DNA of 64,000 nt from assembly GCF_000334455.1 (NCBI RefSeq), contig NZ_BANX01000011.1:393186-457185 (forward strand), given 5' to 3'. This DNA is from Gordonia soli NBRC 108243 (GTDB lineage Bacteria; Actinomycetota; Actinomycetes; Mycobacteriales; Mycobacteriaceae). The translations under genes were made by a program, and so were the position numbers. Below the pieces are notes generated by a model that saw nothing but the letters and a program-made list of their open reading frames with translations, did not search any database and was not told where the DNA came from. This document shows, in pieces, positions 22,586-29,113 of the stretch (position 1 is the first letter of the stretch; every line of letters starts with the position of its first letter).

Positions 22586-24118
22586 TTAGCGGGGCTTCAC
22601 GATCGGGAACAGGATGGTCTCGCGGATGCCGAGGCCGGTGAGGGCCATCAGCAGGCGGTCGATGCCCATGCCGGTGCCGGCGGTCGGGGGCATGCCGTAC
22701 TCCATCGCGGCGAGGAAGTCCTCGTCGAGGGCCATCGCCTCATCGTCGCCGGCCGCGGCCAGACGCGCCTGGTCGACGAACCGCTCACGCTGGATGACGG
22801 GGTCGACGAGCTCGGAATAGCCGGTGGCCAACTCGAATCCGCGGATGTAGAGGTCCCACTTCTCGACGACACCGGGCACCGACCGATGCGACCGCACCAG
22901 CGGCGACGTCTCGACCGGGAAGTCGCGGATGAACACCGGCTCCGAGAGGTGCTGTCCGACAGTGTGTTCCCACAGTTCCTCGACCAGCTTGCCGTGGCCG
23001 TAGCCCTTCCCTGCGGGCACCTCGAGTCCGACGCGCGCGGCGATCGCCAGCAACTCGTCGACACTCGTCTCGACCGGCACGATCTCCTGACCGAGCGCCT
23101 CCGACAGCGAGGGGTACATCTGCAGCGAGGTCCACTCCCCCGACAGATCGTAGGCGCTGCCGTCGGGCATCGTCGGCGCGAGCGTCCCGAGTGCGGCCTG
23201 CGAGACCTCCTGCACGAGTTCACGGGTCATCGCCGCGGCGTCGTCGTAGGTGCCGTAGGCCTGATACGTCTCCAGCATCGCGAACTCGGGCGAGTGGGTG
23301 GAGTCGGCACCCTCGTTGCGGAAGTTGCGGTTGACCTCGAAGACCCGCTCGATGCCACCGACCACGCAGCGCTTGAGGAAGAGCTCCGGCGCGATCCGCA
23401 GGTAGAGGTCGATGTCGAAGGCGTTGGAATGGGTGACGAACGGTCGGGCCGCCGCGCCGCCGTGCAGCGTCTGCAGCATGGGCGTCTCGACCTCGAGGAA
23501 GCCCCGACGGACCAGTGCGGCACGGAGTTCGGCGATCACGGCCACGCGGGTACGGGCGATCTCGCGCGCCTCGGGCCGCACGATGAGGTCGACATACCGC
23601 TGCCGGACCCGCGACTCCTCGTTCATGTCCTTGTGCGCGACGGGCAACGGCCGCAACGCCTTCGACGCCATCTGCCAGGCATCGGCCATCACACTGAGCT
23701 CACCGGTCCGCGAACTGATCACCTGGCCGCCGACGTAGACGATGTCACCGAGGTCGACCTCGGCCTTCCACCGTGCCAGCGACTCCTCACCGACACCGTT
23801 GAAGCTGACCATCGCCTGCAGCTGGGTACCGTCCCCCTCCTGCAGCGTCGCGAAGCAGAGCTTGCCCTTGTTGCGCAGGAAGATGACACGTCCCGCGACA
23901 CCGACGTGCTCACCGGTCTCGGTGTCCGCCTCGAGGTCGGGGTGCGCGTCGCGGATCTCGCGGAGCGAATGGGTACGCGGGATCGACACCGGGTAGGCCT
24001 CGTGGCCCTCGGCGAGGATCCGCTCACGCTTCTCCTGGCGGATCCGGATCTGCTCGGGCGTGTGGTCGGCGGCCTGGTCCGGGACGGAGTCTGCAGGTGA
24101 GGTGGGGCTGTCGGTCAC
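22586..24118 (-). CDS. lysS: lysyl-tRNA synthetase, class II
   Basis: A 510-aa class II aminoacyl-tRNA synthetase charging tRNA-Lys. After an N-terminal tail, the OB-fold anticodon-binding domain (about 60-175) includes [20 protein letters not shown]. Motif 1 is near [13 protein letters not shown], motif 2 reads [23 protein letters not shown], and motif 3 is [15 protein letters not shown] near the C-terminus. GTG at 24116-24118 gives [11 protein letters not shown] and lies 9 bp after the stop of the LAL regulator. In M. tuberculosis lysS is followed by lsr2 and clpC1; here it converges on fadD3 instead. Confidence 0.95.
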
Positions 24119-24127
24119 CTGTCGACC

Positions 24128-26875
24128 CTATCGAACCAGCCGGGGCTCCCGACCGGAGGCGGCTGCCGCCAGCTCGACGCGGGTGCGCAGACCGAGCTTG
24201 CCGAGGACGTGTGACACGTGGGTCTGGACGGTACGCGGTGACATGAACAGCCGACCGGCGATGTCGGGACCCGAGAGCCCCAATGCGACAAGCTCGGTGA
24301 CCTGCGCTTCCGTGGGCGTGAGGCTGTCCCAGCCGGTGTCCGGCCGACGGCGGGTCCCGCTGGTGGTGACCCGCACCCCGGCGCCCCGCATCCGCGACAG
24401 GATGCGCGACCGCCATCCGTCGGCGCCCGCGTCCTCGACGGTTCGCAGTGCCGCACGGGCGTGATCGATCGCCTCCGTCTTCCGTCCGTCGACCGCTGCG
24501 GCGACCGCTGCCTCCTCCCATCCGCTGACGATGAGGGCGAAGTCCTCTGTCCGGGTGGCTCGGCGCGCGACATCGGATGCGACCTCGACGACCGCCGACG
24601 GCTCGGCCGACGCCATCGCCTCGGCCAGCCGGACCGCGTCCGTGGTCGCCGGTCCCAGTGGCCGGGGCAGGGTGGCGAGGTCGGCGGCAACCTGGGTCAC
24701 CAGGTCCTCGTCGACGGCCCGGATCGCGATCCGGACGATCTCCGGGGCGACCATCGCCGCCCACGAGAAGCAGTGCTGTGACATCGCGCCCGACCACACC
24801 TCCCCGGCCAGGTGTGCGGCCGTGCGATGGCTGCGCCGGGCCTCGGCGGTCAGCATCCGCACCCGCGCGATCTGCGGGATGCCGAACTGGTGCAGCAGGT
24901 GCCCGTAACCGATACGGTCGTCGTCCCACAACTGGACGCGATGTTCGGCGCCGGCCAGGTCACCGGTCATCACGTCGATCATCGCCCGACCGCCGTAGGC
25001 CAGCGACGACACGGCCTCCTCCCCGGTCGCCACCTTCTCGAAGGCGGCGTCGTAGATCGCGACGGAGTCGGCGAGGTTGCCGCGGAGGAGTTCGATGGAG
25101 CCGGAGATCAGCTGGTGATACGTTCCCTGCCAACCGGTTCCGCGGTCGGCCTGTCGGCGTGCCATCTCCAGTCGCGACTCGGCGGCCGCCTTGGGTCCGC
25201 GGTGGTACATCTCGATGAAGGGCGGCCAGAGGTCGGCCGACGCGCCCTCACTCGAATCCGATGCCTCCTCGGTCATGAAGCGCCGCGACGCCTCGGCGGC
25301 GTACTCGACCGCGGCGAAGGTCGCGCCGGTCAGACAGCTGCGTAGGGCCTCGGCCACCAGCCCCGTCAGTGACAGTTCACCGACGGTGTCGACATACGGT
25401 TCGAGCGGTATCGGACCGGCGCCGCCGAGAAGCCGCACGTACGACCGATGGTCGGTGATGATCCGACGGCTCACCTCCGGCAGCGGGAAGGTCAAGGTCT
25501 CCTCGATCATCTCGAGTACCTCGTCGCGCGCGCCGCGGACGGTCAGCGCGAACATCCGGACCCGGATCAACCGGGCGATGGCGTCGACGTCACCGGCGAC
25601 ACTCAACGCGTCGCGGGCCACCTCGTCGGCCTGGGCGAGCTGCCCGGACCGGGCGAGTGCGAGGGCGCGCTCCACCGACAACGCCGTCGCCTCCGCGGCC
25701 ACTCCCGCGCCCCCGAACGGTCCCGCGCCGCCGGCCAGGACGTCGGCGGCCACCGCGGGGACGGTCTCCAGCCGTCGCGCAGCTGCCTGCACTGCGACGA
25801 CGGTCTCGCCGGGCTCGGCGCCCGCTGCCCGCAGATGGTGCGCGCGCGCCACCGGGTCGGACTCACCGACGAAGTCGGCGATCGCCCGGTGCACCACGTC
25901 TCGGAGTGGACGAGCGGTCCGCTCACAGACCGCGTCGGCGATGGTGTCGTGGGTGACCTCGAGTCTGCCGTGGTCGTCGAAGGCGACCAGGTCGGCTTCC
26001 AGGAGTTCCTGTACCGGCGCCACCACCGCGGCGGCAGGCACCGCGACCAGCGCGGCGAGATCTTCGAGGGCGGCCGGACCACCCCACACCGCGAGCCTCA
26101 GCAGCACATCGCGTGCACCGCTGCCGACGGGGTCCAGGCGGGCCTCGACGGATTCTGCGAGCGTCGGCGCCGATGCGGCGTCCACCCCCATCGGGATGTC
26201 GACGCCGTCTGCGTCGCGGATCAGCAGTTCGCGCCGACCGAGGTCGTCGAGCATGGTCTGCGCGGACAGCGGGTGGCCGCCGGTCGTCGCCAGCGCCGAT
26301 CTGAGTCGCGTTCCCGGCCAGGCGGCGAGGCGCTCGTGCACCAGTACGTCGACGTCCATCCCGTCCAACGGCGGGACCACCACGGTCTCGACGTCGGGTC
26401 GGGCGGCGAGCCGGACCAGGTACTCGCGCACGGGTTCCGGCCGCCGGGCGACGATCAGCGCAACCGGCAGCATCCGCGCGACGTCGGCGATCAGCGCCAT
26501 CGTCGCAAGGCTCGCAGCGTCGGCGTGATGGGCGTCGTCGACCACGAAGACATGCGGCCCCAGCGCGACGAGGCGGTCGAGCCGCTCCAGGAACAGCCGA
26601 TCGGCATCCGGCGGAAGGGGATCGGGGACCTCGACGCCGAGCAGGTCGCCGACCACGGAATATGGCTTACGCCATGACAATTCCGAAGCGGTGGCCCACG
26701 AGACGGTGACCGGCGACTCGGCAGCGGCGGCCCGTAAGGAGTGACTCTTTCCACCGCCCGCCTCAGCGGTGACGACCACGCAACCGCCGCCGCCGCCCGT
26801 CGCGGCGACCGCATCGACGCGACGACGCAACGCGGAGACGAACTCTCGTCGCCGACCGGCCAGCACCGCGCTCAT
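24128..26875 (-). CDS. LAL-type LuxR-family ATPase regulator
   Basis: A 915-aa transcriptional regulator of the LAL (large ATP-binding LuxR) class. The N-terminal STAND/AAA ATPase has Walker A AEAGGGKS (37-44) and Walker B HVFVVDDAHHADAAS (about 109-123). A long alpha-helical middle of TPR character follows. The last about 65 residues form a LuxR HTH: LTPTEAQVTELVALGLSGPDIAGRLFMSPRTVQTHVSHVLGKLGLRTR. Target and signal unknown. It lies upstream of lysS by 9 bp, so it may be cotranscribed with that essential gene, and 59 bp after the rhodanese-like gene. Confidence 0.9.
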   Translation of the reverse strand: MSAVLAGRRREFVSALRRRVDAVAATGGGGGCVVVTAEAGGGKSHSLRAAAAESPVTVSWATASELSWRKPYSVVGDLLGVEVPDPLPPDADRLFLERLDRLVALGPHVFVVDDAHHADAASLATMALIADVARMLPVALIVARRPEPVREYLVRLAARPDVETVVVPPLDGMDVDVLVHERLAAWPGTRLRSALATTGGHPLSAQTMLDDLGRRELLIRDADGVDIPMGVDAASAPTLAESVEARLDPVGSGARDVLLRLAVWGGPAALEDLAALVAVPAAAVVAPVQELLEADLVAFDDHGRLEVTHDTIADAVCERTARPLRDVVHRAIADFVGESDPVARAHHLRAAGAEPGETVVAVQAAARRLETVPAVAADVLAGGAGPFGGAGVAAEATALSVERALALARSGQLAQADEVARDALSVAGDVDAIARLIRVRMFALTVRGARDEVLEMIEETLTFPLPEVSRRIITDHRSYVRLLGGAGPIPLEPYVDTVGELSLTGLVAEALRSCLTGATFAAVEYAAEASRRFMTEEASDSSEGASADLWPPFIEMYHRGPKAAAESRLEMARRQADRGTGWQGTYHQLISGSIELLRGNLADSVAIYDAAFEKVATGEEAVSSLAYGGRAMIDVMTGDLAGAEHRVQLWDDDRIGYGHLLHQFGIPQIARVRMLTAEARRSHRTAAHLAGEVWSGAMSQHCFSWAAMVAPEIVRIAIRAVDEDLVTQVAADLATLPRPLGPATTDAVRLAEAMASAEPSAVVEVASDVARRATRTEDFALIVSGWEEAAVAAAVDGRKTEAIDHARAALRTVEDAGADGWRSRILSRMRGAGVRVTTSGTRRRPDTGWDSLTPTEAQVTELVALGLSGPDIAGRLFMSPRTVQTHVSHVLGKLGLRTRVELAAAASGREPRLVR

Positions 26876-26934
26876 GCGCAGAGCCTACTGCGGACAAAAC
26901 CGGCATGCGCGCCTTCTGAACGGCGCAGTGCGGG

Positions 26935-27366
26935 TCAGTGTGCGGAGATCATCGCCAGCTCGCCGGGGGCGACCCGACCGCGTATCCCGGCGCGATGCAG
27001 GGCACGGAACCCACCGCGCACGAAACGCGCGCCGTGGACACCGCGCGCCTGCAGGTGCCAGGTGAGCCACTCGGCCTCATGGCCGTCGTCGCTGACCAGC
27101 AGCCAGCGCGCCCCGGTGTCGGCGGTACGCAAGGCGCCGGGGAGGCCGGGGGTGAGTCGGTTGAGCAGGTCGGCAGCGTCGATGGCCAGCGCACCGGAGA
27201 GGACGCCGTCGGCGGCCCGTCGGTGCTGGCTGCGGACATCTACCGCGACGACACCCGAATCGATCTCGTCGAGGAACTGCGCGACCGAGACGGACAGCGG
27301 CGCGTCCGATGCCACGGCGACGACGGGACGGATGGGAGCAACAGGAGAGAGCACGGAGGCAGTCAT
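26935..27366 (-). CDS. rhodanese-like domain protein without catalytic Cys
   Basis: A 143-aa single rhodanese-like domain. The fold signatures VVAVDVRSQHRRAADGVLSGALAIDA (residues about 38-63) and WLTWHLQARGVHGARFVRGGFRAL (about 98-121) are present. The active-site loop, however, reads LLVSDDGHEAE with Ser in place of the usual Cys, so sulfurtransferase activity is doubtful and a binding or sensing role is possible. A GAGGA ribosome binding site precedes the ATG at 27366. A nine-codon cysteine-rich leader lies 68 bp upstream, which argues for sulfur-responsive expression. Confidence 0.8.
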   Translation of the reverse strand: MTASVLSPVAPIRPVVAVASDAPLSVSVAQFLDEIDSGVVAVDVRSQHRRAADGVLSGALAIDAADLLNRLTPGLPGALRTADTGARWLLVSDDGHEAEWLTWHLQARGVHGARFVRGGFRALHRAGIRGRVAPGELAMISAH

Positions 27367-27434
27367 GAGAGTCCTCGGGAAATGATCGAGCTACGAGCGG
27401 GGTGGTCGACGCGAGGGCGGCCGCAGATGCGGAC

Positions 27435-27464
27435 TCAGCCCTGACAACACTCCCGACAGCTCAT
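27435..27464 (-). CDS. cysteine-rich leader peptide MSCRECCQG
   Basis: A nine-codon ORF ATG-AGC-TGT-CGG-GAG-TGT-TGT-CAG-GGC-TGA lies upstream of the rhodanese-like gene and 2 bp after the hydrolase stop. Three of nine residues are Cys, two adjacent. Polycysteine leader ORFs upstream of sulfur genes are known in mycobacteria as cysteine-responsive attenuators: stalling at the Cys codons when Cys-tRNA is scarce opens the downstream gene. The 68-nt gap to the rhodanese gene could hold alternative structures. The leader assignment rests on composition and position. Confidence 0.7.
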   Translation of the reverse strand: MSCRECCQG

Positions 27465-27466
27465 GA

Positions 27467-28417
27467 TCACGCGGTGGATTCTGCCACACCTCCGATGTCA
27501 CGCGCCAGACCAGCCGCGATCTCGGCCAGCCGGTCGATGCCGGGGCGTTCGATCGGGTAGTGCCCACAGCCGTCCAGCAGGTGCATCGAGGTCGGGCCCG
27601 CGATGCGGTCGAGGAAGCGACGACTCAGCGCGGGCGGAGTCCACGCGTCCTCGGCGGGGTGGACGAGCGTGACCGCAGGCCCGGCGTACTCCTCCGGCGG
27701 TGTGTGCGCGAAGGTCATCGCGTCGGCGAGGAACCCGATGGGCACCCTGCCGCCCCCGCCACGCCGATCGGTCGCACACAGTCGCGACAGACGCGAGTCG
27801 GCGCTCATCCGGTCGAGCGGTGCGATCCAGCCGATCGGAATGCGCACATCGCCGACGAACCGAGCGATGGTCGGCAGCGTCGTCGGCGCGAACTGTCCGA
27901 TCAGCGGCCAGCGGGTGGCCGCCCGAACGGCTGCACGATCGCCGGAGAGGTCCAGCAAACAGGTGGCCACGGCGGCTGCGACCCGGCCGGTCCGGGCCGC
28001 CACCTCGTAGGCCAGCATCCCGCCCATGCTGGCACCGAAGACGATCAGAGGGCGCGGGTCGCGATCGGTCTCGGCGATCACCAGGTCGGTGAGCAGGTCC
28101 ACCCAGTCGGCGTAGCGCACCCGTCCCGGCTCGTCGAGGCGGGTCCGTCCGTAGAGCGGCAGGTCGGGAGCCAACGGCTCGGCGCCGTTGTCGGCGAGCA
28201 CGGCGGCCGCCGGCCAGAGCGCCCCCGAATGTCCACCGGCTCCGTGGATGACCATCACCCGCACCCGCGCGTCGGGCCGTGGCGCCCGTGCGATCTGGAC
28301 ATCGACCGGTCGGCCGTGCAGCTCCCAACGCCACCACGACTCCTGCGGCGGGGTGGCCGACGCCCGCGAACGCCACGGCTCAGGAAGAAGATCGGCGTAT
28401 TCTGTCCAGGTGGTCAT
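27467..28417 (-). CDS. alpha/beta hydrolase
   Basis: A 316-aa alpha/beta-hydrolase fold protein. The oxyanion segment VIHGAGGHSGALWPAA (about residues 56-71), the nucleophile elbow VFGASMGGMLAYEVAA (Ser about 129), the acid region VHPAEDAWTPP (about 265) and the catalytic His in LLDGCGHYPIERPG (about 295) are all in order. Substrate unknown; it could be an esterase, lactonase or thioesterase. It is divergent from a TetR gene with a perfect operator-like repeat between them, the usual arrangement of a repressor controlling a neighbouring enzyme. Confidence 0.83.
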   Translation of the reverse strand: MTTWTEYADLLPEPWRSRASATPPQESWWRWELHGRPVDVQIARAPRPDARVRVMVIHGAGGHSGALWPAAAVLADNGAEPLAPDLPLYGRTRLDEPGRVRYADWVDLLTDLVIAETDRDPRPLIVFGASMGGMLAYEVAARTGRVAAAVATCLLDLSGDRAAVRAATRWPLIGQFAPTTLPTIARFVGDVRIPIGWIAPLDRMSADSRLSRLCATDRRGGGGRVPIGFLADAMTFAHTPPEEYAGPAVTLVHPAEDAWTPPALSRRFLDRIAGPTSMHLLDGCGHYPIERPGIDRLAEIAAGLARDIGGVAESTA

Positions 28418-28433
28418 CCATCAATTGTCGAAA

Positions 28434-28450
28434 GTGCTGGCCGCCAGCAC
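28434..28450. promoter_or_regulatory. TetR operator between hydrolase and regulator
   Basis: GTGCTGG (28434-28440) and CCAGCAC (28444-28450) are perfect inverted arms around CCG, in the 60-bp divergent gap. The likely ligand is the adjacent TetR protein. On the minus strand a GACAAT element lies 6 nt before the hydrolase ATG. Confidence 0.7.
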
Positions 28451-28477
28451 AACTCGCATTCTGGCGCCCACCTTTTG

Positions 28478-29113
28478 ATGCGCAAACAGCCTGCGCAACA
28501 ACGGTCCCGGTTCACCGTCGACGTGATCCTGGAAGCAGCGACTCGCATTCTGGATCGGCCGGGCACCACGCTGGACGGCATCGGCGACGACGGGTTCACC
28601 ACCAATCGCGTCGCCGAGGAGGCCGGCGTCTCGGTCGGCTCGCTCTACCAGTACTTCCCCGACAAACAGTCGATCATCGAGGAGATCGCTCGTCGACACC
28701 TGGCATCGGCATCGGCCCGGATGATCGACCTGCTCGACGACGTGTCGACGAGCACCGAGGACCTGCTGGCCGGGCTGATCACGATCGTGGTGTCGGAGAA
28801 CGCATCCCACCCGCGCGCATTCGCCCTGATCCGCGAGCGAACTGTCTCGCCGGAGGTGGCCGACGAGTACCTCTCCTTCGTGCGGGATCTCGTCGACCGG
28901 CTCGCACCGCGGCTCGTCACCACGGACGACGGCGGGGACATCGACGGGACCGTCGACGCGGCCGAGGCGCGGTCGCGTGCCCGGCTGGCGATCGCGGCCA
29001 TCGACGGACAGGTACACCAGTTGGTCGAGCAGGTCCGCGGCCCCGAGGACGAGCGGCGGCTGGTCGAGCGCATCCTACGGTTCACCCGAGCGGCGCTGTC
29101 CGACGCGGGATGA
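28478..29113 (+). CDS. TetR-family regulator
   Basis: A 211-aa TetR repressor. The HTH is FTTNRVAEEAGVSVGSLYQYFPDKQSIIEEIARRHL (about residues 39-73), typical of the family; the C-terminal domain is helical and has the TetR_C-like LIRERTVSPEVADEYLSFVRDLVDRLAPRL. ATG at 28478 begins MRKQPAQQRSRFTVDVILEAA; an open frame far upstream is antisense to the hydrolase. It probably represses itself and the divergent hydrolase through the 28434-28450 repeat. Confidence 0.88.
   Translation: MRKQPAQQRSRFTVDVILEAATRILDRPGTTLDGIGDDGFTTNRVAEEAGVSVGSLYQYFPDKQSIIEEIARRHLASASARMIDLLDDVSTSTEDLLAGLITIVVSENASHPRAFALIRERTVSPEVADEYLSFVRDLVDRLAPRLVTTDDGGDIDGTVDAAEARSRARLAIAAIDGQVHQLVEQVRGPEDERRLVERILRFTRAALSDAG

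Follow-up and report, generated by a model that had tools for sequence, protein, structure and literature searches.

Does the short, cysteine-codon-rich reading frame that lies directly before a gene for a rhodanese-like protein in Gordonia soli sense cysteine supply, and if so, why does it precede a protein that itself has no cysteine? The locus lies on the minus strand of the window, by which we mean the whole 64,000-nt stretch of Gordonia soli NBRC 108243 DNA analysed here. The upstream open reading frame (uORF; 27435..27470) reads GTG ATC ATG AGC TGT CGG GAG TGT TGT CAG GGC TGA (27470-27435) and has 11 codons in a leaderless-type arrangement, with its start at 27470-27468 and its stop at 27437-27435. 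Since the GTG is an in-frame start, translation would give MIMSCRECCQG, with M for the GTG. Cys is first encoded at codon 5 (27456-27458), and codons 8 and 9 form a tandem TGT TGT (27444..27449). An earlier note on this DNA had described nine codons; these are present (ATG to TGA, 27464-27435) as codons 3-11 of the longer frame, and the stop does stand 68 nt 5′ of the rhodanese-like ATG (27366). The same note set the frame immediately after the stop of the alpha/beta hydrolase gene (27467..28417, minus strand). The hydrolase frame does end at 27467, but the true start of the uORF overlaps that gene's stop codon, with which the GTG shares bases. The ATG formerly taken as the start is codon 3, two codons downstream of the in-frame GTG, and we rejected it because only 13 of 62 related leaders have ATG there (AAG in 46, ACG in 2, CAG in 1); codon 1 is GTG in 60 leaders and ATG in 2. 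At codons 5, 8 and 9 of the 62 leaders, TGT is used in 184 of 186 cases, and the 38 long ORFs of the window use 30 TGT vs 88 TGC.

The bases upstream of the GTG point to a leaderless transcript. A predicted extended −10-like element, TGTGGCAGAAT (27478..27488, minus strand), lies inside the last hydrolase codons and ends 7 nt before the GTG, a spacing typical of leaderless mRNAs, and all 62 related leaders have TG-N-CANNNT 6-7 nt 5′ of codon 1. From this sequence we infer that the transcript begins at the GTG and that the ribosome loads on its 5′ end. In the window, the final part of the hydrolase gene holds both the putative promoter and the start of the leader.

The leader is found upstream in 58/58 Gordonia-genus genomes examined, with three Cys codons in 57. 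This set comprises 37 genomes identified by a protein search of 61 genomes, 20 identified by a DNA pattern, and G381, which the pattern missed. In the protein search, the rhodanese-like protein was detected in 37/37 genus genomes (E 1.5e-19 or better), only weak relatives of it were found outside the genus, and the leader precedes the gene in all 37, G013 included. Within a draw of 401 family genomes, the leader DNA pattern matched 50/53 genus genomes, and the three that it missed (G012, G013 and G381) carry the leader with a base change; in G013 (L037) the change affects the first of the three Cys codons and leaves the TGT TGT pair intact. Outside the genus the pattern matched one genome of g28 and three of g39, and a related pattern applied to a GTDB-based named collection returned 32 stretches, every one with a Gordonia title. 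The 62 leaders analysed are those of the 58 genus genomes and the four of g28 and g39 (L048-L051). All 62 have a frame of 11 codons and keep the tandem Cys pair, their stop codon is TGA or TAG, and codons 3, 6 and 10 vary without introducing stops. The uORF is conserved beyond chance in Gordonia: we checked whether any genome had kept the gene while losing the frame or its Cys codons, and 58/58 had not, apart from the one Cys codon in G013.

Alternatively, ribosomes that terminate on the leader could re-initiate at the next gene, so that the leader would mainly supply that gene with ribosomes and not sense cysteine, and the portion of PMC4833913 available to us proposes that close leader genes raise translation of the next gene in Actinobacteria. 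The distances given there are about 10-11 bp, against 68 nt here, and the spacer is inconstant among relatives (47 to 111 nt); this explanation also leaves the conserved Cys codons unaccounted for, and we consider it improbable.

The gene downstream (26935..27366, minus strand) encodes a 143-aa rhodanese-like protein (PF00581, 25.7 bits; cut-off 22.2) with Ser in place of the active-site Cys, as the earlier note had correctly read, and with no Cys elsewhere. Its predicted structure (pLDDT 84.1) matches rhodanese folds, the best Foldseek match being 2hhg (E 5.1e-6), and the orthologues L048 and L051, from two other genera, have no Pfam match at 0.001. Ser, Thr, Gly or Ala replaces the catalytic Cys in every protein of the 62 loci (61 read by script, L029 by eye), as it does in all 120 homologues listed out of 162 found, the window's own included (119 read by script, P0051 by eye). 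No Cys occurs at all in 58 of the 62 proteins and in 116 of the 120 listed homologues. Judged from these residues, the protein is likely no sulfurtransferase, and a binding or carrier role is what we infer for it. The available portion of PMC7661421 describes a low content of sulfur amino acids in proteins of sulfur acquisition, and a Cys-free protein would suit cysteine shortage. In a quick tree of rhodaneses, which included the catalytic column, one change separates the Cys from the Cys-less proteins (support 93); a single loss is therefore allowed, not proved.

What, then, could couple translation of the leader to this gene? In folds of 59 distinct leader-spacer sequences, the uORF forms the 5′ strand of one long RNA rod, in which leader bases 1-6 are at least 60% paired downstream in 58 folds, bases 8-12 in 57, bases 18-27 in 56 and bases 29-33 in all 59. 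The rod's mean energy is lower than that of whole shuffles by 2.63 SD and than that of spacer-only shuffles by 2.98 SD, and 161 of 5900 spacer shuffles reach the observed folding energy. We aligned 47 of the 59 distinct leaders (alignment A1), with 12 of unusual spacer length omitted and 3 duplicates dropped. The 5′ arm of helix A is formed by the leader's first six bases, including the start codon (27465..27470, minus strand; 98.6% of cells paired over the 47 sequences), and its 3′ arm, GATCAT (27382..27387, minus strand), supported by sequence, folds and alignment, stands 5 nt before the Shine-Dalgarno sequence (SD); in relatives the partner of these six bases is GATCAY, 5′ of the SD. Two of the six helix A pairs show changes on both sides: the two leaders that start with ATG have A-U instead of G-C as pair 1, and two other leaders, of which L031 is otherwise poorly paired in A1, have G-C instead of C-G as pair 6. 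The g39 leaders L050 and L051 pair GTGATG with CATCAC. Helix D joins AGGGC of codons 10-11 (27438..27442, minus strand; bases 29-33, at least 60% paired in every fold) to GCCCT (27414..27418, minus strand; 87.7% of cells paired in A1), and its arms vary together (AGGGC/GCCCU, UGGGC/GCCCA, GGGCC/GGCCC, AGAGC/GCUC and others). An apical hairpin, CCGCATCTGCGG (27421..27432, minus strand; 94.0% of cells paired), caps the rod.

The controls on covariation in A1 are good, not perfect, and their outcome is mixed: the 5 pairs observed to change on both sides were reached in 14/500 shuffles and the 14 such cells in 1/500, and the covariation score was 0.094 when partners were slid by +3 vs 0.106 observed. 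In longer folds, helix A falls below a probability of 0.5 in 10 of 62 sequences, one of which (L074) was wrongly cut. No U-run, as an intrinsic terminator would have, was seen by eye after the rod in the aligned spacers. The rod is conserved, with compensatory changes.

Such a rod raises the question of whether the Cys codons are kept through base pairing alone, in a structured RNA or an operator-like DNA site. Consistent with this, 20 of 36 leader columns are invariant among the 47 sequences, and bases 18-27 are among those paired in nearly all folds. The leader nevertheless behaves as a coding frame, in that its start alternates between GTG and ATG and its stop between TGA and TAG, its length is constant at 11 codons and no stop arises as codons 3, 6 and 10 vary. 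Leaders of other genera, treated below, differ in their 5′ half yet retain ECC[RQ]G-stop and an in-frame start, and the search of 26800-28000 against Rfam gave no match at or above gathering score, with two weak matches below it. Base pairing as the sole reason for the Cys codons is thus, in our judgement, quite improbable.

We modelled the cost of opening the RNA around the start of the rhodanese-like gene, for which GAGG (27373..27376, minus strand) is, from its position relative to the ATG, the probable SD. In this thermodynamic model of 61 sequences, opening −30..+12 is predicted to cost 18.2 kcal/mol in the free RNA, 14.0 with a ribosome at codon 8 and 11.4 with one at codon 5; the window's own values are 17.5 free and 10.9 with the ribosome at codon 8. 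The predicted fall on stalling is 4.11, vs 2.56 with shuffled spacers, and exceeds all six of a sequence's own shuffles in only 15 of 61. Ribosomes at the start codon (11.5 kcal/mol) and at the stop codon (14.7 kcal/mol) would open the same run-up, and a switch must therefore read dwell time. The SD core (−16..+12) behaves otherwise: whichever of the six states is modelled, opening it is predicted to cost 9.0-9.6 (9.25 in the free RNA, 9.18 with the ribosome stalled at codon 8), and the fall on stalling is 0.04 observed vs 1.61 with shuffled spacers. Its mean probability of being unpaired is 0.27 in the free RNA vs 0.26 with the leader blocked (62 sequences, one of which, L074, has a wrong gene start). 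Because the cost of the SD core is flat and shuffles change it more, the classic picture of a hidden SD is unsupported in Gordonia, and we rejected it on these modelled values. The earlier note had proposed folding 27367-27466 in search of a sequestered ribosome binding site; the model predicts that a stalled ribosome frees only the run-up 5′ of the SD, and that the rod encloses the start codon of the leader itself.

We therefore favour, with slightly better than even confidence, a leaderless-type Cys-codon uORF that acts as a cysteine-responsive attenuator, switched on by starvation and read out through the run-up to the SD. When Cys-tRNA is plentiful, the ribosome would pass quickly over the TGT codons and the rod would refold; this would bury the leader start codon, leave a helix 5 nt short of the SD and keep translation of the rhodanese-like gene low. 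When Cys-tRNA is scarce, the ribosome would stall at codon 5, 8 or 9 and hold the rod open; the stretch just 5′ of the SD would then be free, and more of the Cys-free protein would be made. The leader in 58/58 genomes, the start geometry and the frame in 62/62, the rod, and the SD release of the dioxygenase-type leaders described below support this attenuator. Of the note's cysteine attenuator, the conserved Cys-codon leader, the attenuator-like RNA and a protein without a nucleophile are supported; SD sequestration and a reach to the LAL regulator and lysS are unsupported. Having its start codon within a predicted helix, the Gordonia leader offers a clean test bed for the effect of 5′-end structure on leaderless translation.

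The unchanged SD core is the chief weakness of the attenuator model. The strongest competing explanation is a Rho-dependent switch with the sign reversed, in which stalling would expose the C-rich 3′ strand of the rod, so that the gene is on with cysteine and off without it. By eye, that strand is C-rich in the aligned spacers, and the rod masks it; a Rho switch would also be at ease with the lack of predicted SD occlusion in Gordonia, and Rho was proposed, on weak grounds, for mycobacterial cys leaders in the part of PMC1262725 available. We think such a switch unlikely, for reasons that come from related leaders in other genera and are given with them.

Polycysteine leaderless short-ORF attenuators of mycobacteria were reportedly described by Canestrari et al. 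in 2020 (Mol Microbiol 114:93). Citing papers, in the portions available, refer to these mycobacterial attenuators (PMC9031893, PMC13236596, PMC9094748), and Cys-rich leaderless uORFs are likewise on record in mycobacteria in the available text of PMC4633059, PMC9031893 and PMC13236596. The Gordonia element resembles the polycysteine attenuators in its predicted leaderless-type start, its neighbouring Cys codons, its place on the same strand directly before a putatively sulfur-related gene, and an RNA structure that overlaps the uORF. It differs in its genus, in a regulated protein without catalytic Cys, and in a structure that ends 5′ of the SD core with the leader start codon in the rod. Because sequestration of the SD is not predicted, we liken its proposed working to that of the mycobacterial attenuators without counting it as an ordinary member of their class. 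As far as the consulted parts of two further papers go, Cys-rich uORFs precede cysA2, nirA and other genes in Mycobacterium (PMC4633059), and candidate Cys leader peptides precede cys operons in Mycobacterium and Propionibacterium, for which no conserved hairpins were found (PMC1262725). The Gordonia leader is, like these, a short ORF with Cys codons close to its stop; those leaders stand before assimilation enzymes, and unlike the PMC1262725 leaders ours has a conserved rod. In the literature that we searched, which leaves most subscription papers outside, no Cys leader was reported before this rhodanese-like gene or before a cysteine dioxygenase. If the attenuator reading is true, polycysteine leaderless attenuation extends from mycobacteria to a whole neighbouring genus.

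The end of the leader recurs well beyond Gordonia. The motif GAGTGTTGTCRNGGCTGA (ECC[RQ]G-stop) was found in 167/301 family genomes and 18/31 genera, with one match listed per matching genome, and through this shared motif attenuation would, if true, extend to those 18 of the 31 genera sampled in the family. We read 38 non-Gordonia loci from 37 genomes (G074 twice; L169-L174, L193-L216, L140, L146, L148, L149 and L161-L164), and in 31 of them the leader stands before a cysteine dioxygenase. Of the remaining seven, three, from g48, precede a Ser-rhodanese and three a Cys-rhodanese, and L216 has no assigned gene. The g48 proteins (L205, L206 and L214) carry Ser for the catalytic Cys (WVVVSASG, WILVSARG, WILVSSDG), and no dioxygenase motif was found downstream of them. 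By a loose test, A....T located 5-8 nt upstream of an in-frame start, 38/38 loci qualify, most of them with a distance of 7 nt. In these genera the 5′ half of the leader differs, and ECC[RQ]G-stop and the in-frame start persist. The dioxygenase-operon leaders thus share with the Gordonia leader its end, its start geometry and a rhodanese domain of one superfamily; they differ in a predicted pairing between uORF and SD region and in having the dioxygenase as first gene.

A search with a covariance model of the leader (R1) hit 69/201 family genomes at E 0.1 or better, which is not to be taken as a count, since 20 places outside the training genus were read. Fourteen of these (in g31, g33, g34, g37 and g39, L142 included) stand before a Cys-less rhodanese-like gene, with leaders such as VITRSCQECCRG and MTQSALECCRG, and four (in g36, g43 and g44) before a cysteine dioxygenase followed by a Cys-containing rhodanese. 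The other two are L145, which carries CRQECCRG in another frame, and L147, which has no leader. The dioxygenase was confirmed by PF05995 in L146 and in the window genome's own operon.

In the dioxygenase-type set the SD itself is predicted to respond. Of 35 leaders, 32 were cut for modelling (26 of them before a dioxygenase), and L195, L213 and L216 were skipped because their start was not recognised; the leader starts used for L197-L199, L203 and L164 may be too short. Placing the ribosome on the tandem Cys codons is predicted to make the SD core cheaper to open, at 8.5 instead of 17.5 kcal/mol, with a fall of more than 1 in 32/32 leaders. The fall is 8.96 vs 3.25 with shuffled spacers, and it exceeds all 12 shuffles in 22 of 32. 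When we simply searched each leader for a word that could pair with the last 35 nt, most results fell short of significance (median shuffle frequency 0.165), and 4 of the 32 leaders had no such word. Given the release of the SD core on stalling, we predict that the dioxygenase-type element attenuates translation in the textbook manner and that scarce cysteine switches it on.

These leaders bear on the Rho-dependent switch from both sides. A related leader precedes a cysteine-destroying enzyme, for which a switch that is off in starvation would make metabolic sense. Against this, a stalled ribosome is predicted to free the SD in the dioxygenase leaders, which is the starvation-on sign, and in Gordonia sp. 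NB4-1Y a cysteine dioxygenase and four sulfurtransferases are up under sulfate limitation, according to the accessible text of PMC7661421, where the rhodanese-like gene was not identified among them. That rise of the dioxygenase agrees with the starvation-on sign of the dioxygenase-type leaders. The dioxygenase operons of Gordonia itself have no such motif in the genomes G000, G016 and G026, in each of which the single match is at the rhodanese-like gene. At L053 (minus strand) and L054 (~1760-1800), Gordonia dioxygenase operons follow other short Cys-containing frames (ending MCPGCRS and MAMRCRHVSCCR); no such frame is evident upstream of L052, the window genome's own dioxygenase copy.

We tentatively suggest, as a reading that we hold for less probable than its converse, that the family-wide leaders go back to a single ancestral switch, leaderless and with Cys codons (ECC[RQ]G-stop, present once per genome). 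Its original client would have been a dioxygenase operon; in the clade of Gordonia the switch would have stayed on the nucleophile-less rhodanese and its RNA been rebuilt into a rod that buries the start, the product serving as a Cys-free sulfur sensor or carrier. With a cysteine dioxygenase operon as the original client, a starvation sensor would drive a cysteine-destroying enzyme. Why an apparent sensor of cysteine starvation stands before a dioxygenase elsewhere and before a Cys-less rhodanese in Gordonia becomes a testable question.

How far could such control reach downstream? The earlier note had let the readout extend to the LuxR/LAL-type regulator (24128..26875, minus strand) and lysS (22586..24118, minus strand). 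Both have a TANNNT element 6 nt before their start, TAGGCT before the ATG of the regulator and TAGGGT before the GTG of lysS, and neither was taken as part of the switch; in the window these elements fall within 26876-26887 and 24119-24130, respectively. Among 41 loci in which lysS was found downstream, TANNNT stands 6-8 nt before an in-frame start in 41/41, and at a control distance in 0/41, so that lysS is likely leaderless across the genus. The regulator gene and lysS thus likely have leaderless promoters and transcripts of their own, and control of either gene by the leader is for this reason unsupported, though read-through from upstream may still occur. By eye, and uncounted, several relatives have the order coaX, leader, rhodanese-like gene, lysS; in the window this order is interrupted by a TetR-type gene and the hydrolase (27467-29113) and by the LAL gene (24128-26875). 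In L005, the stretch that separates the rhodanese-like gene from lysS contains an inverted repeat (~1340-1500; gtgtcccgt.ttggaaattcgtt with its complement) that resembles a small mobile element.
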